A DNA stretch of 64,000 nucleotides, taken from contig JADFFQ010000001.1 of NCBI GenBank assembly GCA_022568135.1, forward strand, positions 1 through 64,000. Reading direction: 5' to 3'. A program made the position numbers and the translations under genes. The first letter of the stretch is position 1. The number at the start of each line of letters is the position of its first letter. The notes below the pieces were generated by a model. That model did no database searches and had not been told where the DNA came from. It was given only the letters and a program-made list of their open reading frames with translations. This DNA comes from Planctomycetota bacterium. Its GTDB lineage: Bacteria > Planctomycetota > Phycisphaerae > Phycisphaerales > SM1A02. Shown in pieces: positions 12,330 through 63,732 of this stretch.

Positions 12330-12554
12330 ATAACACTCCAAAAAGGGGGAATTGCGGGTCGGCGGTTTCGGCGTACAGGGATGCGACTCACGCCGCGCCA
12401 GTGCCGGGGTCAAACAAATCGAGGCCTGTCCCTCCCGAAAACTCCATCCGAGCGACCCATCGTGGTTCGGGCCGCACCTTACATTCATCCTACGCATGGC
12501 CCAAGCTACCGACACGTTCTCTGGCCGGCCGGACCGCCACCCAATCGACACATC

Positions 12555-13796: not shown

Positions 13797-14131
13797 GCTG
13801 TTCCAAAACTCAGCCGAACAGGAAGTCAAGTGATGGCAAGAGGTTGAATGGTTCGCGGATAGGTTGTTTCCGGCCGAGATTGAACGTCGTCTTGGTGTCA
13901 ACGGGCAGTATCCCCTGGTCAGGTGACGCCTGTATAGGGGACGTCGCCAATTTATGCCGACGAGTAAAATGTGCGTGCGGTGGCACCGGAAGCGCGATAG
14001 GCCACTCGGATCGAGTTTTCGGGAGAGACATGTGTCGGGATCAGTGGTGCGGCGCGAGCGGCTAGGCCGAATGTTGAACTACTACCACCGAATGGCCGCT
14101 TGATGTGTTCGGCTGACTTCTGGAACCATAC
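13797..14131 (+). mobile_element. internally deleted IS relic
   Basis: The left end reads GTTCCAAAACTCAGCCGAAC (13800 on), matching the IS left end at 40203. The right part (14050-14131) encodes the transposase C-terminal end (MLNYYHR-like) and finishes with TTCTGGAACCATA, the reverse complement of the left end. The interior is lost and a palindromic-element arm (13922-14030) lies inside. Confidence 0.55.
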
Positions 14132-17736: not shown

Positions 17737-17913
17737 TCATGAACTCACCGGGTTCTGCGAGTGATCCTCTTCGCCGGGATGCTCGCCGCGTTGATCAGAC
17801 TCCCGAAGGGCGTGGCGAAGGCGGCGATTCTCCTCTCGAAGTCGCTTGTACTCACGATGTTGATCGGGGTTCACCCAGCCGAACAGTGCGATAAGCAGTC
17901 GTGATACGAGCAT
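17737..17913 (-). pseudogene. transposase N-terminal-like relic
   Basis: The frame [20 protein letters not shown] then YKRLREENRRLRHALRES has the hydrophobic start and leucine-rich coiled helix seen at the N-terminus of integrase-type transposases, then degenerates to a stop. It faces away from the DDE relic at 17926, so it is a rearranged fragment. Confidence 0.3.
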
Positions 17914-17925
17914 CTCGGGCATGGT

Positions 17926-18329
17926 GTGGGCCGAAGCACGGTGAGACGGATCCTCAGGGAGCACGGTATTGACCCTGCGCCGGAGCGTCGCAAGCATCTT
18001 CCCTGGAAGACCTTCCTGCGCGCACATTGGGGAGCGATCGCCGCCGCCGACTTCTTCACCGTCGAGATCTGGACGCGGACCGGGCTCAGGCGCTACTTCG
18101 TGTTCTTCGTGATGGCTCTGGCAACACTGAAGATCGAAGTTGCGGGGATCAGGGCCGCGCCGAGGGGAGTCTGGATGACACAGATCGCCCGGAATCTGAC
18201 GGATGTTGCGATCGGCTTCCTATCGGACGATCGATATCTGATCTGGGATCGCGATCCTTTATATACGTGGGAGTTCCGCGAAACGCTGCGAGCGGCGGGG
18301 GTGACGCCGGTCCGCTTGCCGCCGCGGAG
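17926..18329 (+). pseudogene. integrase-core transposase relic
   Basis: About 135 codons ~93% identical to the middle of the IS at 40203 ([54 protein letters not shown]). The first catalytic Asp remains; the part bearing the third acidic residue is replaced by duplicated segment B. Confidence 0.85.
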
Positions 18330-18435
18330 CCCCATCCGAACGGTCGCGGCGCCAATCGCCAATGCTCCGGCCATGTCCCCACCTCGGCCAGCAGATCATC
18401 CGGGTCGGCAGCGACAGATACATCGGAACCGTCCT

Positions 18436-18461
18436 AAAGAAAGGCCCGCCGGGGGGCGGGC
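18436..18461 (-). terminator. intrinsic terminator of the 90-aa gene, copy B
   Basis: GCCCGCC/GGCGGGC stem on the minus strand followed by CTTTCTTT, conserved from copy A with a loop shorter by two bases. Confidence 0.7.
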
Positions 18462-18491
18462 TGTAGATGACCAAGATGGGCGGCGGATCGA

Positions 18492-18764
18492 TCAGGTGGC
18501 AGACCGGAAGATATGGCGGTCCTCGAAGCGGATAGGAGACCCGATTTTCAGATCGCCGAGTTCATCAAGGTCGCTGCCTGGGAAGTCTGTCACCTCGCCT
18601 TCGAAGGTCTGGTCAGCGTTGGTCTTCACGACCTTGGCGTAGATTTGCACACCATCGGCTTCGAGCTGTACTTCGCAGCCCTCCGACACGTAGCTGGTGC
18701 TACCGGCATACTCAATTGGTTGGCCCTGCTGGCGCACGTCAAAGCTGATTTCCTGAGTTTCCAT
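18492..18764 (-). CDS. conserved small soluble protein, 90 aa (copy B)
   Basis: Paralogue of the gene at 3056-3328, same length and same ribosome site (CAGGAGAGTC). Differences are scattered substitutions (for example RRHPQ to RQQGQ, FLGGDLDKP to FPGSDLDEL) with no frameshift, so both copies look intact. Function unknown. Confidence 0.7.
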
Positions 18765-33558: not shown

Positions 33559-35535
33559 CTACTCGCCGCGACCGCTTTCGCGCCGGCTGCCCGGTGGCCG
33601 GCCGCGCCGCACCTCCGGCAATCTGACTGCCGCTGTCTCCGTTGCCGCGCCCACCGGCCCGCCCACGATCGTTGGCAGCACCCGCACCTCGATCTTCGCC
33701 TCGTGCTCCTCGCGATCGATCACGATCTGGTCAACGCACCGTCGCACCGCGGCCTGCCGTTGGTCCGGCGGTCCTTCGCGCAGCGACGGCTCAAGGCATG
33801 CAACGAACCGTGCAGTCTCGGCCACGAGATCGTGAACCTCCGCCTCTGTCAGCGCCAGGCGCTCCAGCGACTCGATTTGGGTCTCCAGTCGCTCGCGCTC
33901 TTTGTTCAGTTCTTCGAGACGCTGATCGACCAACTGTCGGTTCGTCGCCGTGATGTTGTCGAGCAGATTCCGGGTCGTCGTGTCGATGGGCTTGAGGCGC
34001 GATTCCAGTTTCTTCTGCTGCTTGACGATCTGGTCGCGGTCCTCGTTGATGTGGACGCCTACCGCCTCGGTGATCCGCTTCTTGGCGCCCTTGCCCGTGT
34101 ATCGAGCGTAGAAGTCCACAAGGGTCTTGATCACCGCCTCCTCGAGCGCGTCCTTGGGGAAAGCGCCGAGTGTGCACATGCTCCGTCCGTGGCGAATGTA
34201 GCCGCCGCAGGCGTAGTGGAAGGTCCGCTTGCGTGATCCGTTGTCGCCCCGATTGTTGCCGTAACGCGTGTAGCCTTCGTAACGGCTTCCGCAATTCGAA
34301 CAGACGCCAAGCCCGGAGAGCAGGAACTTGGCGCGCGGACCGGTCCAGCCGCCGATGCGCTCGCCTGCCGGCGCGCCGGTCCGGGGGTTGATCCCTCGCT
34401 GCTGTCTGGATGAAGGTTGCTCCTGGAGACGCTGCTTGGCCGACTCCCAGATGCGCCGACTCACGGTTGCCGGGTGGGCGTTCTCGACCACGAGCCAATC
34501 CGACTCATCGTTCTGTTCGAGGCGCCGGCCATGGACCCCCTTTCGCTCGACTGCCCGTCCATCGACGATGCGGTGGAACCGCGCATCGGTCCGGCGGTTC
34601 CAGGCCATGTCGCCTCTGTAGGCGGGGTTGATCAGGATTCCACGAACCGAGGTCAGCGACCACTTTCCGCTGTAGTGCACTGCCCATTCGGGGCCTCTGG
34701 GCGGTGGAATGCCGTCTCGGTTCAAGGCGTCGGCCACGGCTTTGAAGCCGCGGCGCTCCTGGACGTACATCGTGAAGATCCGCCGGATCGTTGACACCCG
34801 GTTCTTCTCGCTGGGGATCAGCTTACACCGGTCCTTGCGGGAGACGCTGATCGACTCACCGCGTTCGAGCGTGCGAATCAGCTTTCCCTTCTGATCGAAC
34901 ATCTGCTTGGTGCCGTCGCGCATGTAGCGGAGGATGAACAGGAACTGGCCCGACTGGCTCTCATAGCCCAGGTCGTAGCCGTAGGGCGGGGCGCCACCCA
35001 TCCACCAGCCTTCACCGTTGCCTGCGGCATCCCCGTTGGTCGCCTTGCTCACCAACCCGCGAATGACCACCTTGGACAGGTCCTTGCTCTCCTCTCTGGC
35101 CTGCCATTGCTTGACGGGGCGAATCAGATCGTCGGTTCCATCGCCGGTGAAGTTCTCGCTGGTGTAGTGGACCTCGACGCCGTGGGTCCGAAGGACGTGG
35201 CGGTAGTAGCCCGCCTCATCATTGTCGATCCTGCCGAAGCGCTTGACGTCGTAGACGACGATCACGCCGAAGTCGCAGGCGGGGCGCTTGGCGTCGGCCA
35301 TCATCGCCTGGAACGCCCGTCGGCCGACGGTGCTGGTGCCGCTGATCGCATCGTCCACGTAGAAGCGCAGCAGCCGCAGGCCGTGCTCGCCGGCGTACTC
35401 TTCGATGGCACGCTTCTGATCCGGAATCGACTGCTCCTGGCGATCGGTGGAGCGCCGCACGTAGCCGATGGCTCGCGTGGCCCTGGTTCGCGCCTTGCCG
35501 CCGCGCGGGGCGTTGATGGTGTCGGCTCTGGCCAT
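33559..35535 (-). CDS. large serine recombinase
   Basis: 658 residues from MARADTINAP, with AAGGAG ten bases upstream. The resolvase/invertase catalytic domain (~20-165) has the nucleophile Ser in YVRRSTDRQEQSIPDQ, an Arg in AISGTSTVGRRAF and VVYDVKRFGR. A recombinase domain follows (~200-340), then a zinc-ribbon (CSNCGSRY...CGGYIRHGRSMC) and a long coiled coil (~520-600, LNKERERLETQIESLERL). Family members integrate or excise phages and transposable islands. It is likely the integrase of the island around it, but no att pair was identified. Confidence 0.95.
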   Translation of the reverse strand: MARADTINAPRGGKARTRATRAIGYVRRSTDRQEQSIPDQKRAIEEYAGEHGLRLLRFYVDDAISGTSTVGRRAFQAMMADAKRPACDFGVIVVYDVKRFGRIDNDEAGYYRHVLRTHGVEVHYTSENFTGDGTDDLIRPVKQWQAREESKDLSKVVIRGLVSKATNGDAAGNGEGWWMGGAPPYGYDLGYESQSGQFLFILRYMRDGTKQMFDQKGKLIRTLERGESISVSRKDRCKLIPSEKNRVSTIRRIFTMYVQERRGFKAVADALNRDGIPPPRGPEWAVHYSGKWSLTSVRGILINPAYRGDMAWNRRTDARFHRIVDGRAVERKGVHGRRLEQNDESDWLVVENAHPATVSRRIWESAKQRLQEQPSSRQQRGINPRTGAPAGERIGGWTGPRAKFLLSGLGVCSNCGSRYEGYTRYGNNRGDNGSRKRTFHYACGGYIRHGRSMCTLGAFPKDALEEAVIKTLVDFYARYTGKGAKKRITEAVGVHINEDRDQIVKQQKKLESRLKPIDTTTRNLLDNITATNRQLVDQRLEELNKERERLETQIESLERLALTEAEVHDLVAETARFVACLEPSLREGPPDQRQAAVRRCVDQIVIDREEHEAKIEVRVLPTIVGGPVGAATETAAVRLPEVRRGRPPGSRRESGRGE

Positions 35536-35704
35536 TCCTGGATCTCCTTCCGTCGCCCTGCGCGGCGTGTGGTCCGCCCAGGGGGGTAAGGGGTCATGGG
35601 GGCATAGGGTGGGCCGAACATCAAGGCGATTGTGGGCGAATCCGGCGAGATCTGGCCAGAATCTGGCCATCCGGGCCTCAAATCGGCCAATTCGGCCAAC
35701 CTCG

Positions 35705-35879
35705 TATGGGTCCAATATTCAGCCCAACTGCAAATCGCACTGTGTCAAGAGCTTGGATTTGCTGGTGACGGGTCGTTTGTGGCCCGAAGCTGGCACGCAT
35801 TCGATGGGCTGAAGTTCGCCCCATCTTCAAGCTCTTGACACATCACGACTTCGGCTTGGGCCGATTTTTGGAGTCGTAC
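35705..35879. mobile_element. MITE-like element, copy 1
   Basis: Starts TATGGGTCCAATATTCAGCC and ends in the inverted, partly decayed GATTTTTGGAGTCGTA. The interior is ~85% identical to copy 2 (39981-40162). No ORF. Its termini match the integrase-type IS, so it is probably a non-autonomous derivative. Confidence 0.75.
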
Positions 35880-36120
35880 GCGCTGCAGATCGGTGCCTGT
35901 AAAAACAGATAGCTCAAGACTGGGACAAATTATCATCTCAATTAGGCCAGTGATAAAATTGTTGAAGTGCTATAACGAAGTTATAGCCCTTCAATATATT
36001 CTTGTCAAGCCTATCTCTGCATTTATCTCGTTATCGAGTACAAATTCCCTTGCACCGTGCTAGTATGCCACACTCTCCGTGGCACCAATGGCAGTGCCAG
36101 GTTGCAGGACGAGACCGGCC

Positions 36121-39716: not shown

Positions 39717-39980
39717 TCACATCCCAAAGAGCTGCCTTGCGTACTTCTGATAGCGGGGATCGTCATGGATCATTGGGCGGGGGTTTCTGATGAGGGTCAC
39801 CTTCACTGGTTCGGATGGTCCCTGCCCGGCCGCGGAGACCGCCATTTCCAACGCATCCGGCCCGTCGTCGTGTGCGCCTAGCGGGAAATACCGCAGCTGA
39901 TCCACCAGCGTGTTGTGCCGGCGCGAGAGACGCAGCGTGCCCGAGCTGATCAGCGGTTGGAGGCTCTGAATGCGACCCCG
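39717..39980 (-). pseudogene. phage terminase large-subunit C-terminal remnant
   Basis: The minus frame contains GRIQSLQPLISSGTLRLS and GAHDDGPDALEMAVSAAG and ends KYARQLFGM. It aligns with GRIQALQP and AHDDGPDALEMAV of the intact terminase at 50125-51756, but is a different lineage. It is cut at 39980, exactly where the MITE starts, so insertion destroyed it. Confidence 0.8.
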
Positions 39981-40162
39981 TATGGGTCCAATATTCAGCC
40001 CAACTGCAAATCGCACTGTGCCAAGAGCTTGGATTTGCTGGCGACGGGTCGTTTGTGGCCCGAATCTGGCGCGCATGCGATGGGCTGCGGAGATGAGGTT
40101 CACACCGCCTTGAAGCTCCTGACGCATCACGACTTCGGCTTGGGCTGACTTTTGGACCCATA
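39981..40162. mobile_element. MITE-like element, copy 2
   Basis: TATGGGTCCAATATTCAGCC at the left and its inverted form (GACTTTTGGACCCATA) at the right give imperfect terminal repeats of ~45 bp. 182 bp, no gene. It interrupts the terminase remnant and abuts the IS at 40203. Confidence 0.85.
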
Positions 40163-40202
40163 CTACGGTGATCGAGTCGAGATGCGCCCCCGCGCGACCT
40201 CA

Positions 40203-41012
40203 TATGGTTCCAAAACTCAGGCGAGCTCTAAACGAGCACGTACCAGAGCGATGGCCGAAGAGAACAAGAGTTGGGGTTACCGACGGATCCAAGGCGCGCT
40301 GGCGAATCTCGGACATCGTGTGGGCCGAAGCACGGTGAGACGGATCCTCAGGGAGCACGGTATTGATCCTGCGCCGGAGCGTCGCAAGCGTCTTCCCTGG
40401 AAGACCTTCCTGCGCGCACATTGGGGAGCGATCGCGGCCGCCGACTTCTTCACCGTCGAGATCTGGACGCGGACCGGGCTCACGCGCTACTTCGTGTTCT
40501 TCGTGATGGATCTGGCAACACGGAAGATCGAAGTTGCGGGGATCACGGCCGCGCCGAACGGAGTCTGGATGACACAGATCGCCCGGAATCTGACGGATGT
40601 TGCCATCGGCTTCCTATCGGACCATCGATATCTGATCTGCGATCGCGATCCTTTATATACGCGGGAGTTCCGCGAAACGCTGCGAGCGGCGGGGGTCACG
40701 CCAGTCAGACTCGCGCCTCGAAGTCCGGACCTCAACGCCTACGCGGAGCGGTTCGTCCGATCCATCAAAGAGGAGTGCTTGGACAAGCTAATCGTCATCG
40801 GCGAGCGGCATCTGCGCATGGCGATCAGTGAGTACGTCGAGCATTATCACGCGGAGCGGAATCACCAGGGACTCGAGAACGCGCTCATCGCTCCGGCGTC
40901 GGAAGTGGGGGAGTTGTCCGGACCGGTGCTTCGGCGCGAACGGCTCGGCGGGATGCTGAATTACTACCACCGGAAAGCGGCATAATGTGTTGCGTTGAGT
41001 ATTGGACCCCTA
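40203..41012 (+). mobile_element. integrase-type insertion sequence, 5'-shortened
   Basis: Left end TATGGTTCCAAAACTCAG and right end GAGTATTGGACCCCTA form imperfect inverted repeats. The 810-bp unit holds one transposase gene lacking the N-terminal third found in relatives. Relics of the family are at 13797, 17926, 44115, 51905 and 63174. Confidence 0.75.
40251..40985 (+). CDS. integrase-core (DDE) transposase
   Basis: 244 residues from [17 protein letters not shown]; the frame stays open upstream into the MITE but that part is not conserved. DDE residues: Asp in [11 protein letters not shown], Asp in CDRDPLYT, Glu in [10 protein letters not shown], followed by [11 protein letters not shown]. 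The last residues are [10 protein letters not shown]. Relatives of ~350 residues carry an N-terminal HTH and coiled coil that are missing, so this copy may be inactive or need help in trans. Confidence 0.9.
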
Positions 41013-42937: not shown

Positions 42938-43177
42938 CTACTTGCCAGCCACTCGCATGATTGCTTCCGATGGATCGAAGCCGCAAGCTTTGCACCAGCG
43001 GACCATTTCGACCGGATCGATCCGCCGGTTGCCCGTCTCCGTCTTGTATACGAACGAGTGGGGACGCTTCAGCTTGCGAGCCAGCTCTCGCTGGGTGAGA
43101 TCGGCCTGCAAACGCCACTCTCGTAGCAGCTTACACAGCCTCCGGTATGCGGGGTCATGCTGCGCCTTTGTGCCCAT
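42938..43177 (-). CDS. small XRE-family regulator (module A)
   Basis: 79 residues with one HTH: LTQRELARKLKRPHSFVYKT ETGNRRID. The size and layout recall controller (C) proteins of restriction systems. The upstream region (43180-43229) has nested inverted repeats overlapping its own promoter and that of the divergent GIY-YIG-RAMA gene. 50% similar to the module B regulator at 46062, sharing TQREL, RP.S.VY and ETGNRR. Confidence 0.88.
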   Translation of the reverse strand: MGTKAQHDPAYRRLCKLLREWRLQADLTQRELARKLKRPHSFVYKTETGNRRIDPVEMVRWCKACGFDPSEAIMRVAGK

Positions 43178-44114: not shown

Positions 44115-44265
44115 CTCTTCCGGAGTCTGGATGACACAGATCGCCCGGAATCTGACGGGTGTGGCCATCGGCCTTCGATCGGACCATCGATACCTGATTT
44201 GCGATCGCGATCCTCTATATGCGCGTGAGTTCCGCGAAACGCTGCGAGCGGCGGGGGTGACCGTG
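44115..44265 (+). pseudogene. integrase-core transposase relic
   Basis: About 48 codons ([37 protein letters not shown]) ~90% identical to the IS at 40203. Both ends are lost. Confidence 0.8.
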
Positions 44266-45094: not shown

Positions 45095-45413
45095 GATCGC
45101 ACTCCTCCGAAAGGGTCGGCGTGATCTCCAGGCAGTTGGAGCCCCAACGGTTGCGGCTCCCCAACGTTCCATATCGACCTCACCAGCTCATCGCGCCACA
45201 TCCATTCTGGGGGGCAGGCGACGCTTCGACTGCGGCAGTCTACTCAATGCCACAACCAAATCCCAAGCTCTTGACGCATCACGGCTTTGGCTTGTGCTGA
45301 CTGTTGGACCCATTCGAGGTCGGACAGCCGTGGGCGAATCAAGCCGACAGCGAGTTAGCAACTTCCCGGCGGTGGCGCCGAATCCGAGGGATTAGACGCT
45401 GGGCTACTCTAGA
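45095..45413. other. 319-bp spacer with a MITE fragment
   Basis: 45262-45314 (AAGCTCTTGACGCATCACGG ... TTGGACCCATTCG) is the right end of the MITE family. The remainder shows no gene. Confidence 0.6.
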
Positions 45414-46061: not shown

Positions 46062-46307
46062 ATGCCGCGCAAGGCCCAGCATGCCCGCGACTATCGCTCC
46101 GTCCCGACCTTCCTCCGCGGATTGCGCGAGAAGGCCGGGCTGACCCAGCGCGAGCTTGGCCAGCGGCTGGGACGGCCCCAGTCATGGGTGTACAACTGCG
46201 AGACCGGCAACCGACGCGTGGACGTGGCGGAGTTCGCACGGTGGTGCGAGGCATGCGAGGCCACCCCGACGGCTGGTTTCGCGCGCTGGCTGAAGCACCG
46301 ACGGTGA
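46062..46307 (+). CDS. small XRE-family regulator (module B)
   Basis: 81 residues, HTH: LTQRELGQRLGRPQSWVYNC then ETGNRRVDVAE. Paralogous in design to the module A regulator at 42938. Autoregulation is likely given the palindrome just upstream. It converges on the HSDR_N-RAMA gene, whose promoter carries the same half-sites, so it probably controls both. Confidence 0.9.
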   Translation: MPRKAQHARDYRSVPTFLRGLREKAGLTQRELGQRLGRPQSWVYNCETGNRRVDVAEFARWCEACEATPTAGFARWLKHRR

Positions 46308-46425: not shown

Positions 46426-47520
46426 CTACCGGCCTTGCTGCTTACGGCGCTGGTGATACTCGTCCCTCGCATCGTCGAGGGATCGCTCATCGCCGCTTCT
46501 GCCGACAAACCGCCAGAACCGCCATCCATTGGTGCTGGCATGACGCCCGAGAATGACTGATCGGGCTTCGGCAGCCGCTGTCGACGGACTGTCGTACTGC
46601 GTCCCCTTGAACTCGATCGTGCCATCCGGGTGCAGGGCCGCTTCGAGGCGCCGACCCTTGTACTCGCGGAAGAGTGGAAGCGGAGCAGGCAAGATGCCGG
46701 CTTTGATGAGTTGAAGCAGCGTTACCGCCGGCTGTGCCCGCGTGCCTGGGCGTTGCTTTGTGGATTCTCGCCGCTGCGTGCGGTGTTCAGGTGCGGTTGA
46801 CGTGATTTCCCCCATCGTCGCCAGCGCGTTGTCGTTGAGGAGGTGGTGAACGGCGTCGATGACATCGTCGATGGAGACCGGCACGCCCGTGCTCCGACGC
46901 AGTTGGCGCCAGAGCGCCTTCATTGATGACTCGCTGAAGATCGCCTGGAGTACGGTGCCGCTGTCGAGCACCTCGCGTTTCTGCCACAGCTTGTCCAGCA
47001 CACCCTTCTTGACGCTGCGGTAGGAGATGAGCTCGAACCGTTTGGCGAGCATCTCGACATCGTCCTCAAGGAGATCCCATTCGAAGAGCCGCTTGGTCAC
47101 CGGCGGTTGGCCGAACGCAACGTGGTAGAGGCGCCATTGGCGGCCGTTGGTGAGGATGATCCACTCGCAGCCGGTGTTGATGGCGTAGGAGGAGACCTGC
47201 TTGAGGTGCTTGCGGGCCAGGTCGGTTCCGACCCGCTTGAGCTCCACGAGGATGGTGGGGCGGCTGTGCTCCTGGGCATCAATCCGGATCGCGAAGTCGA
47301 CGTGTTCGGTCTCGCCCGCCCCTCGGATCGCATGTTCACGTGTGAGGTGCTCGAAGGGGTGGTAGCCCAGGACGCTCTCGAAGATGCGTTCCACGCGGCG
47401 GCGGGTCTCCGCTTCGTTACCATCCATCTTCGCCAGCCGCTGGATCACGCCGCGGGCCTCGATCACGGCGCGTTGGCGATCCTGCTCTCGGCTCGAAGCG
47501 TTCGATCTCTTCTTGGCCAT
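46426..47520 (-). CDS. type I restriction N-terminal-like nuclease fused to a RAMA domain (module B)
   Basis: 364 residues. Residues ~25-170 match the HsdR N-terminal PD-(D/E)xK domain: Asp75 in EHVDFAIRI, Glu93 and Lys95 in ILVELKRVG, then CEWIILTNGRQWRLYHVAFG. A helical section (~170-250) and linker lead to RAMA (~295-350: REYKGRRLEAALHPDGTIEF, then STNGWRFWRF). There is no helicase, so it is not a full HsdR. It may bind or cut DNA by modification state, as inferred for the GIY-YIG-RAMA protein. Upstream operator matches that of the XRE gene. Confidence 0.85.
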   Translation of the reverse strand: MAKKRSNASSREQDRQRAVIEARGVIQRLAKMDGNEAETRRRVERIFESVLGYHPFEHLTREHAIRGAGETEHVDFAIRIDAQEHSRPTILVELKRVGTDLARKHLKQVSSYAINTGCEWIILTNGRQWRLYHVAFGQPPVTKRLFEWDLLEDDVEMLAKRFELISYRSVKKGVLDKLWQKREVLDSGTVLQAIFSESSMKALWRQLRRSTGVPVSIDDVIDAVHHLLNDNALATMGEITSTAPEHRTQRRESTKQRPGTRAQPAVTLLQLIKAGILPAPLPLFREYKGRRLEAALHPDGTIEFKGTQYDSPSTAAAEARSVILGRHASTNGWRFWRFVGRSGDERSLDDARDEYHQRRKQQGR

Positions 47521-47565
47521 GGGACATCCCCTTGCCAGAGGTGCGGCAGAGACTGTCCAGTCTCG

Positions 47566-47589
47566 CCCGACACGGAAGTCGTGTCAAGA
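47566..47589. promoter_or_regulatory. second operator of module B (nuclease side)
   Basis: CCCGACACG, 5-base spacer (GAAGT), CGTGTCAAGA. The half-site and spacer equal those of 46014-46038; it lies ~46 bp upstream of the HSDR_N-RAMA start. A lone half-site CTTGACACG is at 47768. Confidence 0.7.
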
Positions 47590-47811
47590 CGTAGGGGCCG
47601 AACTCATGGCGTAGTGCAGGGAATGCGAGCTAAAGCCCACCGCCGGGTTCGCGAACTGATCAAGGGCGTTGATGAGCGCAAAGTTATCGCGTCCGCATGA
47701 TACCGAGCGCCGTTTCAGCGGGCTGGGGCCGCTTCCTCGTGCAGCGCTAGAGCTGGCGAAGGTCTTGCTTGACACGATCCGCGCCGCAGGATAGGGTGAT
47801 GAGCATCAACA

Positions 47812-47885
47812 GGCGGCGGTGCGCGATGACAGCAGATTGGCTGTCATCGCCGTGAACAGCGCGAAGCTGTTCGAGGACCGCCGCC
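47812..47885 (+). ncRNA. perfect three-way-junction fold
   Basis: P1 GGCGGCGGT (47812-47820) pairs with ACCGCCGCC (47877-47885). Inside are P2 GCGATGACAGC/GCTGTCATCGC (47823-47850, six-base loop) and P3 GAACAGC/GCTGTTC (47854-47872, loop GCGAA). All 27 pairs are Watson-Crick. Junction strands are 2, 3 and 4 bases. It lies ~200 bp upstream of the methylase gene. No U run and no hammerhead core (CUGAUGA/GAAA), so the class is unknown. Confidence 0.6.
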
Positions 47886-48087
47886 ATGACCCGCCACGAA
47901 AACCAGTTCCCCCATCAGCGTGCTCCACCTCACCGGTGTACGTGATCGCTGTGATCGAGTGATCTGCGAGGGGCGTGATGCGCCCGGGACGATTGGTGTG
48001 ATCCGATCCCCGGTCGACACAACGCACGGTCACGGAATCGAGTCTGGTTTCTGCATCTTAAGGGCGGCGGGGCATGGAGGTCTTGTA

Positions 48088-49425
48088 ATGGACATCCGGA
48101 CGATCAGTCTTGATCAGATCGAGGTCGCCGACTACAACCCGCGCCTGGATCTACAGCCGGGGGATCCCGAATACACCAAGCTCAAGCGCAGCCTCGACGA
48201 GTTCGGCTGTGTGGAGCTGCTGGTGTGGAACCGCCGCACTGGCCATCTTGTCGGGGGCCACCAGCGCTTGAAGGTGCTCATCGAGCAGGGCGTGACGGAG
48301 GTCGAGGTCAGCGTCGTCGATCTCCCCCTCGAGCGAGAAAAGATCCTCAACGTCGGGCTCAACAAGATCGGCGGTGACTGGGACCCCCGGAAACTTCCGC
48401 AGCTGTTGGATGAGCTTGTTCAAATTCCGGGGTTGGACGTCGAGCTCAGCGGCTTCGATCTTCCGGACATCAATGCGTTGATCGCTGACTCGCTGACGCC
48501 ATTTGATGGCGACGGGGAGGATGACTTTGACGTCGAGGCACAGCTCGCAGCCAATCGGCCGTTGATAACACGGCCTGGCGATCTCATCGAGCTGCGAAGA
48601 ATCGACGCCGATCCGCGCTTCCAAGGTCATCGCCTGCTCTGCGGCGACTGCACCGATTTTGCTCAGGTGCGGCGGGTGATGCAGGACGAGCGCGCGATTC
48701 TGTTTTGCACCGATCCTCCTTATTTGGTGAACTACGATGGCATGAATCACCCAGCCTCGAAACACTTTCGGAGGCGCGGTCGGGACAAGAACAAGAACTG
48801 GTCCAAGAGCTACGGCATCACGTGGGACGATGCGAGCGCCAATCCCGACCTATATGCAAAGTTCATCCGCGCCGCCGTGGACGAGGCGATCCTTCCCAAC
48901 GCGGCGTGGTACTGTTGGCACGCCAGCCGACGACAGGGCATGCTGGAATCGGTGTGGGAGAAGTTCGGCGCCTTCGTTCACCAGCAGATCGTCTGGGTCA
49001 AGGATCGACCCATTCTCACTCGTTCCTGGTATGGCTGGCAGCACGAGCCGTGCTTCTTCGGCTGGGTGAGACCCAACAAACCGCCTCGTCGCGCTGAGGA
49101 CTATCCATCCTCTATATGGCACATCCCGACCGTGGCGATTGGCCAGAAAACCGAACATCCCACCTCGAAGCCGTTGGAGGTTTTCAAGATACCGATGCGC
49201 CAGCACACGCGCGCCGGTGAACTTTGCTACGAACCATTTGCCGGCAGCGGCTCTCAGATCATCGCCGCCGAGCAGCTGGGACGGCGATGCAACGCCATTG
49301 AGATCAGCCCGCGCTATTGCGATTTGGTCGTAAGAAGGTTCATCAGCTTTGTAGGCGCGGGTGCCGTATCACCGGAGCTCGCGAAGCGCTACGGCGTCTG
49401 GGATGACCAGGAGGTCGCGACATGA
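48088..49425 (+). CDS. ParB-N-domain DNA methyltransferase, phage type
   Basis: 445 residues, ATG with GGAGG eight bases upstream. Residues 1-120 are a ParB/sulfiredoxin-like domain (YNPRLD, VGGHQRLKVL). A long linker precedes an N6-adenine/N4-cytosine methylase of the beta type: catalytic CTDPPYLVNYDG (~210) before the SAM motif YEPFAGSGSQI (~390). This ParB-methylase fusion is common in prophages next to terminases. ATGA overlap couples it to the next gene. Confidence 0.92.
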   Translation: MDIRTISLDQIEVADYNPRLDLQPGDPEYTKLKRSLDEFGCVELLVWNRRTGHLVGGHQRLKVLIEQGVTEVEVSVVDLPLEREKILNVGLNKIGGDWDPRKLPQLLDELVQIPGLDVELSGFDLPDINALIADSLTPFDGDGEDDFDVEAQLAANRPLITRPGDLIELRRIDADPRFQGHRLLCGDCTDFAQVRRVMQDERAILFCTDPPYLVNYDGMNHPASKHFRRRGRDKNKNWSKSYGITWDDASANPDLYAKFIRAAVDEAILPNAAWYCWHASRRQGMLESVWEKFGAFVHQQIVWVKDRPILTRSWYGWQHEPCFFGWVRPNKPPRRAEDYPSSIWHIPTVAIGQKTEHPTSKPLEVFKIPMRQHTRAGELCYEPFAGSGSQIIAAEQLGRRCNAIEISPRYCDLVVRRFISFVGAGAVSPELAKRYGVWDDQEVAT

Positions 49426-50141
49426 GCCAACGAACGCTGAATGAATCCTCCATCGGCAGCAGCCCTCCGACGACCGGAGAAGTGTCGCAACGATCTGTCG
49501 TTGACCTTCTCCAGGGTCTGCGACAAGGAACCATCACCGGAGCAACCCTGTCCTCCCACGACCGGCGCGCCTGCGTGGCGTACCTGATGGCCGAGGGCTA
49601 CAGCGTCGCAGAGAGCGCGAAGATCTGTCAGACATGCGACCGAACCATCACGCGGGACCGCGCCAAGATTCGCCAAGAGAATGCGATCCAGCGCGATCCG
49701 TCGTTCGAGCCGCAAATGGTCGGGGGTCTGGTTCATGATGCCGAGGTCGCGATCGGTCGGCTGCGGCGGATTGCGAGGGACAAGACCGTCAGCGCCGCGG
49801 TCAGGGTTGAAGCGGAAAAACAGGCGTGGATCATCCGCTGTGATCTGATCAAGATCCTGCAGAGCCTCGGCCATCTGCCCATCGCCACCCAGCACCTCCG
49901 GGCCGACCTGACCCACCACGTCGGCGAGCTGCCCGACCTCCAGACCATTGAACTCGAGATTCGCGAATTGATCCAGGTCGAGCAGGACTTCGGTGGCGCC
50001 GATGACGGCCTCCAAGCAAAGATGCACCGGCTCGAGGCGACCACCAAGCTCCTCGGCGTGGCCGAAGAAGCTCAAGAAGCCCAAGAAGCCCAACAGACGC
50101 TCGACCAAGATAAGGATTCACGAGATGATCAAGAGACTTGA
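49422..50141 (+). CDS. terminase small-subunit-like protein
   Basis: 239 residues. An HTH-like segment (YLMAEGYSVAESAKICQTCD then RTITRDRAKI) is followed by a long helical, acidic region, as in small terminases that recognise DNA and regulate packaging. Assignment rests mainly on position between methylase and large terminase. Overlaps the methylase stop (ATGA) and the terminase start by 17 bp. Confidence 0.65.
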   Translation: MSQRTLNESSIGSSPPTTGEVSQRSVVDLLQGLRQGTITGATLSSHDRRACVAYLMAEGYSVAESAKICQTCDRTITRDRAKIRQENAIQRDPSFEPQMVGGLVHDAEVAIGRLRRIARDKTVSAAVRVEAEKQAWIIRCDLIKILQSLGHLPIATQHLRADLTHHVGELPDLQTIELEIRELIQVEQDFGGADDGLQAKMHRLEATTKLLGVAEEAQEAQEAQQTLDQDKDSRDDQET

Positions 50142-51756
50142 CTACCGAGCCGCCCTGCAAGCAGAACTGATCGAGACTCGGCGCAGCATTTGCCGCCCTT
50201 CGTTGTTGGCCTTCGCCAACACGTACCTCAAGGGGCACTTCCGGCTGAAGCCTTCGCCGATGCATGCCGAGCTGGCAGCGCAGCTGGAAACCGTGACGCT
50301 CACGGCGAGGGGAGCACGAATCGCCACCGCCGCACCACGCGGTCACGCCAAGACCACCCTTGTCGGCCTTGCCTTTCCATTGTGGTGCAGCGCCTTCGAG
50401 CACGAGGCCGTGATCTACCTCATCTCCGACACAATCGACCAGGCTGCGGGGCACCTCGGCAACATCAAGGCCGAGCTCGCATCCAATGAATTGCTGCGCT
50501 GCGACTTCCCCGATCTGTGCGAACCACTTGGCGGAAAGCCGCGGTCGAAGCGGTGGCAGCGCTCGGAGATTGTTACGCGCAACGGCATCAAGATCGTCGC
50601 CTTGGGAGCGCAGTCCAAGATCCGAGGTCGCAAACACGGCTCTGAGCGACCATCGCTCATCATCAATGACGATCTGGAGAACGATGAGGGGGCCGACTCG
50701 CCGGAGCGCTGCGAGAAACTGCTTAATTGGCTCAATCAGGTCGTGCTCAACGCCGGCACCCGGCGGACCAACGTGGTCGTCACTGGGACGATTCTGAGCT
50801 ACGGTGCAGTCCTGGAGACGCTGATGAAGTCGCCCGGCTGGTCCTCTAAGAAATACCGGGCGGTCGAGTCCTGGAGCGATGCCCTCAAACCGTGGGAGCG
50901 ATGGAACAACATCTACAACGGCGATGAGGAATTCGAATGCCAGACCGGGCCAGAGGCAGCGCGGGCTTTCCTGGCGGCCAACGAATCTGTGATGCTGAAA
51001 GGGACGCGAGTGCTGTGGCCGGAATTGGAGAGTTACCAGGACCTCATGACCGCTCGATTGATCCAGGGTGAGTACAGTTTCGACGCCGAGAAGCAGAACG
51101 AACCCGCAAATCCGAGGAACACGATCTTCAAGCCCGAAGACTTCAGGTATTGGGACGAGCAGTACGAAAGTGAAGAGGCGCTGATCGCGGCAGTGGGGGA
51201 ACGGGGCATCTTTATCGGTGCACTCGACCCCAGCCTCGGAAAGCCCGGCCGCAACCGCGACTTTACCGCGATCATCACTCTTCTGGTTGATCCGAAGAAT
51301 GGGATCAAATACGTTCTGGACGCCGATATCACCAAACGGCAGAACGACGAGATCATCCGTGCGGTGATTGACCACCACAGACGTCGAGGGTACCAGGCCT
51401 TCGCGGCCGAGACGGTTCAGTTCCAGGAGTACCTTGCCGACCAACTGATCAAGCAAAGCCGGCTGGCGGGCTTTCCTGTACCTGTGAAACCGACGAAACC
51501 GCACAGCGATAAGTTCGGGCGTATCCAGGCACTTCAGCCGGCCGTTCACAATGGTGAGATCCGTTTCAGCAAGCAGCACTGGTCGTTGCTTCAGCAGATG
51601 AAGCAGTTCCCGAAAGCCGCGCACGACGACGGTCCGGATGCCTTGGAGATGGCCGTCAAGCTCGCCCGGGGCCGGCGACGTCGGCGCCTCCGCTTTGGCC
51701 ATCTACAGCCCATCGCACCCGGTTCGGTCTCGTCGATCTTGGTGATGCACGATTGA
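50125..51756 (+). CDS. phage terminase large subunit
   Basis: 543 residues starting MIKRLDYRAAL, with AAGGA upstream. ATPase Walker A is APRGHAKTTLVG; Walker B is LIINDDLEND; the nuclease domain begins FIGALDPSLGK and ends with HDDGPDALEMAV. It packages DNA into phage heads in intact phages. No portal, protease or capsid gene follows; the sequence breaks into IS relics after 51780, so this is a prophage fragment or a reduced packaging module. Confidence 0.93.
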   Translation: MIKRLDYRAALQAELIETRRSICRPSLLAFANTYLKGHFRLKPSPMHAELAAQLETVTLTARGARIATAAPRGHAKTTLVGLAFPLWCSAFEHEAVIYLISDTIDQAAGHLGNIKAELASNELLRCDFPDLCEPLGGKPRSKRWQRSEIVTRNGIKIVALGAQSKIRGRKHGSERPSLIINDDLENDEGADSPERCEKLLNWLNQVVLNAGTRRTNVVVTGTILSYGAVLETLMKSPGWSSKKYRAVESWSDALKPWERWNNIYNGDEEFECQTGPEAARAFLAANESVMLKGTRVLWPELESYQDLMTARLIQGEYSFDAEKQNEPANPRNTIFKPEDFRYWDEQYESEEALIAAVGERGIFIGALDPSLGKPGRNRDFTAIITLLVDPKNGIKYVLDADITKRQNDEIIRAVIDHHRRRGYQAFAAETVQFQEYLADQLIKQSRLAGFPVPVKPTKPHSDKFGRIQALQPAVHNGEIRFSKQHWSLLQQMKQFPKAAHDDGPDALEMAVKLARGRRRRRLRFGHLQPIAPGSVSSILVMHD

Positions 51757-51904
51757 CTCGCTTACGAAAGATCCCTTTTCGAGTTGTTGGCTCTGTGGGC
51801 ACGCCGGAACAGGGAGAAGCGCATCGGAGGCGGCTGGAGTCCGGCGCACGCCGGCGCCGTGACCATGCGGAACCGGCCCAATGTCCGAGAAGGCCGCTTA
51901 CGTA

Positions 51905-52062
51905 ACGCTCGCCGCAATCACCAGGGATGGGCCAATCGGCACATCAGCCCGCAAGCACCTGATTCAGGAACAATCAGTGGGCCGGTGCACTACCGCCCGC
52001 GGCTTGGCGGCATGCTGAACTTCTACTGCCGGAGAGCGGCGTGAATGCTCGTTCGAATAATG
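51905..52062 (+). pseudogene. transposase C-terminal relic
   Basis: RNARRNHQGWANRH and then RLGGMLNFYCRRAA-stop match the tail of the IS at 40203; the IS right end follows, decayed. The rest is deleted. Confidence 0.65.
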
Positions 52063-55636: not shown

Positions 55637-57313
55637 CTACTTCGGCAGCCATCTTAGCGGTTTATCGCCGGCTGCCGCCTTGTCTAAGAACGTCTCCCAG
55701 ATGCCGACCCACTCCCACCACCTCTGCGGGAGTACTCGCATTGAGACTTTACCCTCTCGGAAGGCAAATGAATCTTCCATGACCTGATCCAGTTGGTAAG
55801 CTTGCCACAAACTACCACTGCCGCCCTTCGCCACATTATTCTTTAGCTTCTCGACAGTAGCCTCTAGCACCGGCTTCGACGCGGGGAATGCGCGGTACTC
55901 ATCGCACACGCACAACTTGTCTTGGGTAGCGTCGCTATGCAAGTGCTCAATATACTCTCTCGCGGAGTTGACATTGTCACTCTTCTCGATGATCGCGGCA
56001 CACTCGATCCACCCAAAGACTCCTTCCTCTGGTACAATTGGAACCCAACCATTCCATTCTTTCTGGATCGCCGGCAGCATCATGCTGCCGGCTCCGAGAA
56101 CGACCCAGCACCTACTAGCTGGGCCTTGTTTGATCTTCTTCGTCATACGTTGCGGGTCATTGAACAAAAAGAACTTCTCTTTGTTCTTGATAATCAGGTC
56201 CAAAGCGGCCGTGAGCTTCCGGAGATGCTCCGGGGGCTCATGTGTCTCTGTCCCGTCATGGCGAGAGGGGATGGGGGCATCATCGCCGTCATCGTGACGA
56301 GGCCTCGGGGGGCATTCACGTTCCAACTGGCGCACCAGCTCAAGTGGCGATCCTCCTACCTCCTTACCTTTCTGAATCTCGGCCGCCCTAATCGATAGGG
56401 CGATTGAGTACAGCGTTGGGAGCCACCAATTCCACAGGCAGATACGAGCGTCCTCGTCCGAATTGTCTATCAAGTACTCAAGCGAGTACTGTGCCCAACT
56501 GACGTTCTGTCTTACTAGTGGTTTACTTTGAGGACGATCCGCCCGAACAAGAAGATCATTCATGCCCCAACGAATTGGCACGCTGTACTCATGTGCTCCG
56601 ATGTCGTTCCAAGCATGGGCTACCCCTTCCGCAAACATCTGCGCCGACCAATCCGTCTCGCCCCCCCAGTCATCTAGCCGCTTGAGTGTCCCAGCCCTTC
56701 CCATTCGCTTAATGAACTCAATATCGGCGACAACGACGTCGAAGTTCCTTTCCCCCAATTTGAGTTTCTCGATCTGCTCAATTCCGCGCAAGTAGCTGAG
56801 GTACTGCGCATCCCCATCACGAAAGAGCTTCTTCACCGCGTCATCCTCGAACCCCGCCCAGACAATCGCGCGGAGAGAACTATTCTGCGCCTTGACCCTG
56901 TCTTCCACGGCGGGCCAAATCTTCTTGAGATGCGGCGTGATCTCGTCGCCACAGATTTCGGTGGCCACCTTCGAAAAGTCATCGAACGACTTGATACCAA
57001 GGGCCATGGCGCGATCGTTAATGGACAGAATGGCCTTGGCATCGGGGAACTGATGCGCATGGCCGTTGGCGCCAGGTTTTCCTCTGAGATCACGCCAGAT
57101 TACAACTAACAGCGCGCCAAGGACAAACAGACCGAAAAGAAGAGCGACTACAAGCGCTGCGGATATCCACCACTTGTCGATTTTGCCTAAGCCAAGAGCA
57201 ACGATCGGTCCAGCAATAAGTACCAGACAACCCGTGAGCACCACACCGGTTGGGCGCAGCTTGTTAATCTCAGTTCCGGTAGCCTCGATGACTTCCTTGC
57301 CAATCTTGAACAT
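55637..57313 (-). CDS. membrane-anchored solute-binding-protein-like protein
   Basis: 558 residues from MFKIGKEVIE. Two membrane segments (~20-45 and 50-75) precede a large soluble region with similarity to the upstream PotD-type protein: WAGFEDDAVKKLF, then DVVVADIEFIKRMGRAG, EEGVFGWIECAAIIEKSDNV and REYIEHLHS. A central insert (~310-420) is new. Compared with ordinary binding proteins it lacks a cleaved signal and is ~200 residues longer. It may be a docking or sensing component in the transporter operon. Confidence 0.75.
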   Translation of the reverse strand: MFKIGKEVIEATGTEINKLRPTGVVLTGCLVLIAGPIVALGLGKIDKWWISAALVVALLFGLFVLGALLVVIWRDLRGKPGANGHAHQFPDAKAILSINDRAMALGIKSFDDFSKVATEICGDEITPHLKKIWPAVEDRVKAQNSSLRAIVWAGFEDDAVKKLFRDGDAQYLSYLRGIEQIEKLKLGERNFDVVVADIEFIKRMGRAGTLKRLDDWGGETDWSAQMFAEGVAHAWNDIGAHEYSVPIRWGMNDLLVRADRPQSKPLVRQNVSWAQYSLEYLIDNSDEDARICLWNWWLPTLYSIALSIRAAEIQKGKEVGGSPLELVRQLERECPPRPRHDDGDDAPIPSRHDGTETHEPPEHLRKLTAALDLIIKNKEKFFLFNDPQRMTKKIKQGPASRCWVVLGAGSMMLPAIQKEWNGWVPIVPEEGVFGWIECAAIIEKSDNVNSAREYIEHLHSDATQDKLCVCDEYRAFPASKPVLEATVEKLKNNVAKGGSGSLWQAYQLDQVMEDSFAFREGKVSMRVLPQRWWEWVGIWETFLDKAAAGDKPLRWLPK

Positions 57314-58481: not shown

Positions 58482-58667
58482 TGAGGAAGTCTCCAGCTGG
58501 AATGAGCCACAGGTTTAGATCTCCCCCTTGGGTCGCAGTCTTGGCTCCCGCCAATTCGATCGAGGCGTCTCAGGTTGCGCCGGGCGCACCGATGTGCCCG
58601 GTTTGCGGCAACACTGGGCCTGTCCACGACCAGCAGGATACACGATCCATAGATGCGATTCAGAGTG
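58482..58667. other. promoter region of the transporter operon
   Basis: No gene. A G/C-rich leader precedes potD on the minus strand; no hexamer pair can be fixed with confidence. Confidence 0.3.
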
Positions 58668-58874
58668 CCTCTCCCGAAAACTCCATCCGAGCGACCCATC
58701 GTGGTTCGGGCCCCACACTACATTCATCCTGCCCGTTGTCATCAATTGTCAGTGTCCCCTCCTCAGGTGACGCCTGCGCAGGGGACACTGCCAGTTGATG
58801 CCAACGAGTAGAATCCGGGTGCTGTGGCGCCGGAAGCGCGATAGGCCACTCGGATCGAGTTTTCGGGAGAGACA
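58668..58874. mobile_element. complete 207-bp palindromic element
   Basis: The left arm (CTCTCCCGAAAACTCCATCC...) and the inverted right arm (ending GTTTTCGGGAGAGACA) match imperfectly over nearly 100 bp each, meeting at CCCCTCCTCAGGTGACGCCTG. No ORF. It resembles a MITE and would fold as one long hairpin. Related arms are at 12427, 13922, 17344, 19192, 59097 and 63488. Confidence 0.75.
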
Positions 58875-59096
58875 GGTCATCCGGGTTGAGCGGTTCTGAC
58901 ACGCTAGAGTGGCTGTCATGACGATCAGCCCCTGGCGGTTGCTCTTCGTCGTGCTGGCTGGTTGGCCTCCTCGACCTGACCCGATCCCGTCATGGTGCAG
59001 AGCTCAACATAATCCCCATTGTGAGACCAGAATCTCGGTGAGCAGGGGCCTAGTTTGTTACTTAGTGGCAATACAGAACACCAGCATGTCAGCTGT
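58875..59096. other. 222 bp without a supported gene
   Basis: A short ORF (from 58909, MAVMTISPWRLLF) has no ribosome site and runs into the next repeat. No function is assigned. Confidence 0.35.
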
Positions 59097-59220
59097 CAGA
59101 GTGACGCCTACTCAGGCGACGCCTGAACAGGGGACATCGCCAATGTGTGGAAGCGAGTAGCATAAGTGTGGTGCCGAAACCGCCATCGATCGCTCGGATG
59201 GAGTTTGCGGTCGGTACAGC
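59097..59220 (+). repeat. diverged arm of the palindromic element upstream of the protease
   Basis: Shares the central AGGCGACGCCTGAACAGGGG with inverted partner, GCGAGTAG and the tail GATGGAGTTTGCGG with the element at 58668. It ends 122 bp before the protease ATG. Confidence 0.7.
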
Positions 59221-63290: not shown

Positions 63291-63487
63291 GCGGGCACGC
63301 GGCATTGAGCAGTGTTTTGTTTCCGGCGGAGTATCCTGAGGGTACGTTGGATAAACATCCTCGCAATTAAGCCCAGAATCTCCAAGTCGACCCTGAGCGA
63401 CCTCTACACAGTCTATGCAGATGCTTGCGGCGACGAGAGTTGCGGGTAGGGTGAGATTTGAAAGACGACGTGAGTATGTCACCTGCT
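63291..63487. other. 197 bp without a gene
   Basis: AT-richer than surroundings; nothing recognised. Confidence 0.35.
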
Positions 63488-63614
63488 TGAGTGACGCCTA
63501 GCTAGGCGACACCTGCACAGGGGATGTCGCCAACCTGTGCCAAGGAGTAGAATGAAATGTGTGTGGCACCGCAACCGCGATCGGCCGCTCGGATGCAGAT
63601 TTCGGAAGGTACAG
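63488..63614 (+). repeat. diverged arm of the palindromic element upstream of the lipoprotein
   Basis: GCCTAGCTAGGCGACACCTG, CACAGGGGATGTCGCC, GAGTAGAAT and ATTTCGGAAGGTACAG match the copy at 59097 and the right arm at 58768. It ends 119 bp before the next ATG, almost the same distance as at the protease gene. Confidence 0.7.
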
Positions 63615-63732
63615 CTTGACCGCGTCACCCCACTGGCGGCAGCCTGTGCTGGATGTGCGAGACGGTAGGTGTCGCACCTGTTTCTTCTTTTTCTTTTTTG
63701 TGGCGGGGTTCCGCTGCCGGAGGGCTCGAACA

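Follow-up and report, generated by a model that had tools for sequence, protein, structure and literature searches.

A mismatch-free three-way junction upstream of a methylase-terminase operon in a Planctomycetota genome, tentatively read as a structured mRNA 5' end

Introduction

Stem-loops of the ompA type are known to stabilise bacterial mRNAs at their 5' ends (reviewed in PMC7509114). The put RNA of phage HK022, which consists of two stem-loops in about 70 nt, directly follows a phage promoter and acts on RNA polymerase (PMC9378689). Here we analyzed a 74-nt element at positions 47812-47885 (+ strand) of a 64-kb stretch of DNA from a Planctomycetota bacterium, hereafter called the window; the genome is a metagenome assembly and, judged by its relatives, of Phycisphaerales type. 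The element may likewise form a strong structure at the start of a transcript. An earlier note on this DNA had described the element as three stems of 9, 11 and 7 Watson-Crick pairs with zero mismatches, and both the sequence and the computed fold agree with that description. The observation is confirmed; the structure is real, striking and an orphan. We favor the reading that it is the genome-specific structured 5' end of a methylase-terS-terL transcript, to which we give a little short of an even chance.

Results

Fold and rarity of the element

The junction is closed by stem P1, in which GGCGGCGGT (47812-47820) pairs with ACCGCCGCC (47877-47885) over 9 bp. Inside it lie P2 (47823-47850), a hairpin of 11 bp with arms GCGATGACAGC/GCTGTCATCGC and loop AGATTG, and P3 (47854-47872), a hairpin of 7 bp (GAACAGC/GCTGTTC) whose loop GCGAA is by sequence a GNRNA-type pentaloop. 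A T47853.G47873 wobble flanks P3 on the + strand only. The minimum free energy of the 74-nt RNA was -52.0 kcal/mol as compared with a mean of -28.6 for shuffled sequences (z -7.4), none of the 200 shuffles being as good, and the junction was retained unchanged when the 297-nt leader was folded. The minus-strand RNA was nearly as stable (-48.2, z -7.6), and either DNA strand folded as well. Since RNA and DNA of either strand fold well, folding alone is no proof of an RNA. The + strand RNA fold is better by 3.8 kcal/mol, an advantage due to the one T.G wobble and the loops, which is weak evidence in favor of an RNA read from the + strand.

The claim that such perfection is very unlikely to arise by chance held up, with fewer than 1e-6 such structures expected per window; calculated analytically, 27 such pairs are expected 2e-7 to 8e-7 times in 64 kb. 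The element is the lowest-energy 74-mer in the window. We searched for perfect three-way junctions with no stem shorter than 6 bp in a 464-kb background sample of the genome, made up of the window and 20 further stretches. This search returned the element (27 bp) and one marginal case (18-19 bp) that sits in a very GC-rich stretch, while 3.7 Mb of first-order Markov sequence contained a single perfect junction of at most 22 bp. One other 74-mer in the 464 kb folds lower (-57.3) and two more come near -50, all of them more GC-rich than the element and of other shapes. Chance is excluded as an explanation of the element's folding. Elsewhere in the window, two neighboring strong hairpins at 56209-56282 (minimum free energy -47 kcal/mol) lie inside a long minus-strand reading frame.

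A promoter-like sequence precedes the junction

A putative promoter on the same strand consists of TTGACA (47769-47774), a 17-bp spacer and TAGGGT (47792-47797), and its -10 hexamer ends 14 bp before the element. Transcription is predicted to start near 47804, about 7 nt past the -10, which would place the junction at roughly +8 to +82. The pattern TTGACA-N16-18-TANNNT has its single match in the 64 kb at 47769-47797 (expected 0.29), and this match, one in one window, is a post hoc finding. Across the 464 kb there were 5 matches against 1.0 expected, four of the five in intergenic DNA, with just 15% of bases left intergenic by a crude gene call. One of the other matches precedes a tRNA-Val gene elsewhere in the genome, and the sequence there, TTGACACCGATCCCGGCCTGGATAGACT, closely resembles the one that precedes the element, TTGACACGATCCGCGCCGCAGGATAGGGT. 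A promoter scan that required 9 of 12 matches listed no site in 47400-48200, whereas a separate count at this threshold gave the site 9 of 12. As scan and count disagree, the case for the promoter is based on the enrichment of the motif and on the tRNA-Val example.

The leader and the downstream genes

The element lies in an intergenic region of 567 bp (47521-48087) between a divergent gene with HSDR_N-like and RAMA domains by Pfam (46426-47520, - strand) and a DNA methylase gene (48088-49425, +). The end of the element is separated from the methylase gene start by 202 bases, which include the Shine-Dalgarno sequence GGAGG (48076-48080) and four direct repeats of GTGATC (47942, 47951, 47959 and 47998; together 47942-48003). 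This cluster, four copies in 62 bp, is the densest in the 464 kb, where a fraction of 3e-5 of 70-nt windows reaches four, and the repeats are possibly linked to the adjacent methylase. The methylase combines a ParB-like N-terminal part with an N6_N4_Mtase domain (Pfam PF01555, 7e-15; PHROG 498, 5e-99; ParB-like PHROG 620, 1e-32). It is followed by an HTH protein (49422-50141, +; HTH_23, 0.0005), by its match and position the probable small terminase subunit, whose homologues stand between methylase and TerL in relatives too, and by the terminase large subunit (50128-51756, +; PHROG 38, 5e-101; Terminase_6C). The gene order given in the earlier note, a methylase followed by two terminase subunits, is thus supported by Pfam and PHROG matches. 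No intrinsic terminator (GC-rich hairpin plus T-run) was found in 47400-48200, so that a free small RNA would need processing, and a tRNA/tmRNA search found none.

Sets of methylase, TerS and TerL such as that at 48088-51756 are widespread in Phycisphaerales (L018-L049). The large gene that follows TerL gave no capsid or portal PHROG match among ten relatives tested, and in L023 and L035 it encodes a large serine recombinase. The set may be a mobile unit and not an ordinary prophage.

The surroundings hold several families of repeats. A palindromic repeat of about 180 bp occurs in the window at 35699-35880, 39975-40156 and 45264-45308, and elsewhere at L215:16291-16477 and in L254-L262 (G003 C27 and C49). 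More than 20 full or partial copies exist in the genus, all in the same orientation within the sampled contigs, like a cassette array. The repeat adjoins a multi-copy large serine recombinase gene (33559-35715, -), and it is overlapped by a fragment of a second terminase large subunit C-terminus (39717-40130, -; PHROG 38). A search of four genus genomes for the integron integrase (TIGR02249) gave nothing over threshold, just sub-threshold tyrosine recombinases. Imperfect palindromic repeats of a second family, about 71-95% identical, occupy 12425-12493, 13892-14033, 58666-58877, 59083-59220 and 63473-63615, and decayed copies of one IS3-type (rve) transposase gene are found at 17912-18642, 40152-40985, 44121-44261 and 51784-52044.

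The element has no detectable relatives

We built a covariance model (R1) from the single sequence, so its reach is limited. The model scored the element itself at 107.7 bits and found nothing further worth noting in its own genome. It found no homologue in 181 genomes of the family, 400 of the order and 392 of the phylum; for the larger samples Infernal's filters were set more strictly, at the cost of some weak matches. Among 160 loci encoding the methylase, drawn from genomes and viral contigs, no match exceeded chance, and loci L018-L026 gave none with the filters off. The earlier note had proposed to look for covarying homologues upstream of ParB-methylase genes; they were absent from the 160 loci and the genome sets. 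The structure is thus not conserved in related loci, which is half of what the note itself would have taken as refuting its reading, and a conserved link to methylase or terminase function is not borne out in any locus or genome searched with the model. With neither homologue nor covariation, there is no sign of selection on the structure. A search of the window against Rfam 15, whose families include riboswitches, sRNAs and phi29 pRNA, gave nothing at gathering threshold and, at E up to 5, only chance matches to snoRNAs below 17 bits; no Rfam family fits the element, in agreement with the note's exclusion of the hammerhead and of purine and TPP riboswitches. BLAST of the intergenic region against phages and plasmids gave chance-level matches only, as did DNA searches for the element, which is not repeated in the genome or the window.

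Several candidates were rejected. Among relatives, the DNA match that scored best (in G030, 85% over 51 nt, E 3e-7) falls within the signal-peptide region of a coding gene, and the stems are not preserved in it. Weak model matches in family genomes (L179-L184) fold differently, and several apparently lie in coding sequence. Two viral contigs contain the exact P2 palindrome, for 9 of its 11 pairs, but neither P1 nor P3. Alphaproteobacterial loci repeatedly gave weak matches of about 100 nt, lying similarly far upstream of the methylase, which were put down to chance.

The nearest relatives of the methylase (L018, L019, L021 and L022, 75-63% identical) have other sequence upstream, and in the 400 nt before their methylase genes we found no strong fold. 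In L019, L247 and L250 the methylase stands tens of bases behind another gene, encoding a Cys-rich protein that ends ...RFC..CR..., which leaves no room for a leader in these three; the window yielded no relative of this Cys-rich gene. Judged by these comparisons the element does not belong to the conserved methylase cassette and appears particular to this genome. Its absence in relatives suggests that it was acquired or created here.

Related methylases in general offered a hint only that their leaders are more structured. In Planctomycetota-type loci the gap upstream of the methylase was more often stably folded (21 loci versus 101 gaps, p 0.005), and length-matched medians were -11.3 for methylase leaders versus -7.6 for other intergenic gaps (p 0.01), in a comparison where the loci are related rather than independent and the gene calls crude. 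These structured leaders share neither sequence nor form. Six loci of another methylase subclade (L031, L032, L033, L034, L036 and L038) have a conserved, strongly folded leader about 80-250 nt upstream of the methylase, unrelated in sequence to the window's element. Single-base indels in it argue against coding, and its covariation was not above that of a shuffled control.

Discussion

A proposed structured 5' end of the operon mRNA

In the reading that we prefer, RNA polymerase would start near 47804 at a strong sigma70-type promoter and transcribe first the 74-nt three-way junction, then about 200 nt of leader, then the methylase start codon. The likeliest role would be a passive one, in which the rigid 5' structure shields the start of the mRNA from 5'-dependent decay and guards against pausing or early termination; it may also act by aiding elongation. 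The element would have been made in this genome by local rearrangement. In favor of this reading, the fold is far beyond chance, and the sole full promoter match of the window directly precedes it. The promoter motif is also enriched and mostly intergenic in the sampled 464 kb of the genome, and it precedes a gene for a structured RNA, tRNA-Val. Against it stand the lack of any homologue or covariation and the equally good folding of the DNA strands, and the closest methylase relatives manage without a leader structure. The suggestion in the earlier note of a small RNA or a cis-regulator of the methylase fits the putative promoter directly upstream. The element is missing upstream of 160 methylase homologues, and absence from relatives speaks against a conserved methylase regulator.

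Alternative explanations

Because any sign of selection is absent, the main sober rival is a neutral or decaying remnant, a nested palindrome that a mobile element or a chance inverted duplication left behind in a rearranged island and that is now functionless. The element is unique to this genome, and around it lie many transposase fragments, copies of serine recombinases and palindromic repeats. Furthermore, three relatives have a gene before the methylase that is lacking here, which indicates that the gene junction upstream of the methylase was rearranged. A remnant would soon collect mismatches, however, whereas these stems are free of them; the sequence has no second copy in the genome or window from which it could be read as a repeat, and a consensus promoter directly precedes it. 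We regard this explanation as somewhat unlikely.

The main functional rival arises since the inner arms of the two hairpins share the core ACAGC-N5/6-GCTGT. As tandem palindromes in DNA downstream of a promoter, they could bind a dimeric regulator that blocks transcription, such as one of the island's small HTH proteins (encoded at 46062-46307 and 42938-43177) or the methylase itself. The window contains two palindromes of this pattern, both in the element (expected 0.22), and at about +20 to +69 from the predicted start they are plausibly placed for repressor sites. But the core is no genome-wide regulon motif, with 10 sites in the whole genome versus 7 for a reversed-pattern control, and an operator needs neither the 9-bp outer stem nor perfect 11-bp arms. 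The likeness to known tandem palindromic operators, two adjacent palindromes with a common core downstream of a promoter, is set against a perfect outer stem, arms longer than needed and the lack of a regulon. We consider an operator unlikely.

The earlier note had also raised a packaging or recombination site, and a folded single strand could serve as such a site or in replication (cos/pac, att or attC-like, origin). The terminase genes are adjacent and single-stranded DNA of this sequence folds stably, but none of the loci with this terminase and methylase has the structure, which speaks against packaging or recombination as its role; within the window, no capsid or portal gene can be recognized beside the terminase set, and neither an RYYYAAC nor a GTTRRRY box was seen when 47812-47885 was read by eye for attC. 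With no positive evidence for it, we hold this idea to be very improbable. A conserved structured RNA family, riboswitch or sRNA, not yet in Rfam is nearly refuted, for although a three-way junction beside a promoter has the right geometry, the model found only the element itself in its own and the 181, 400 and 392 other genomes, and Rfam matches were far below threshold.

Significance and comparison with known systems

If the element is transcribed, it would add a compact and very rigid three-way junction RNA to a phylum in which little RNA biology has been done, and its type of promoter could be recognized because a tRNA promoter in this genome resembles it. It would also mean that strong leader structures can arise in single genomes without any trace in relatives, invisible to homology-based RNA discovery. 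Should the element be neutral, it would remind us that perfect folding by itself is weak evidence of function.

Among described systems, the put RNA suggests a more specific version of a transcribed leader, in which a put-like but closed three-way junction starts the mobile methylase-terminase operon as a protein-independent antiterminator or processive elongation RNA; we see this as a long shot. HK022 putL has its two stem-loops just downstream of the promoter of a phage operon; in a similar layout, the element is short (74 nt), has two inner hairpins, begins 14 bp after the putative -10 hexamer and stands in the leader of phage-like genes. Unlike put, which is described without a closing outer stem (PMC9378689), it has P1, and model R1 run against HK022 1-40000 with filters off found no significant similarity to putL or putR (best 12.3 bits, E 1.6). 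The structured mRNA 5' end that we favor has its counterpart in the ompA-type stem-loops. As in these, a strong structure would lie within the first nucleotides of the predicted transcript, far from the Shine-Dalgarno sequence; in contrast to those simple hairpins, the structure is a three-way junction, with about 7 unpaired nucleotides predicted before its first stem.
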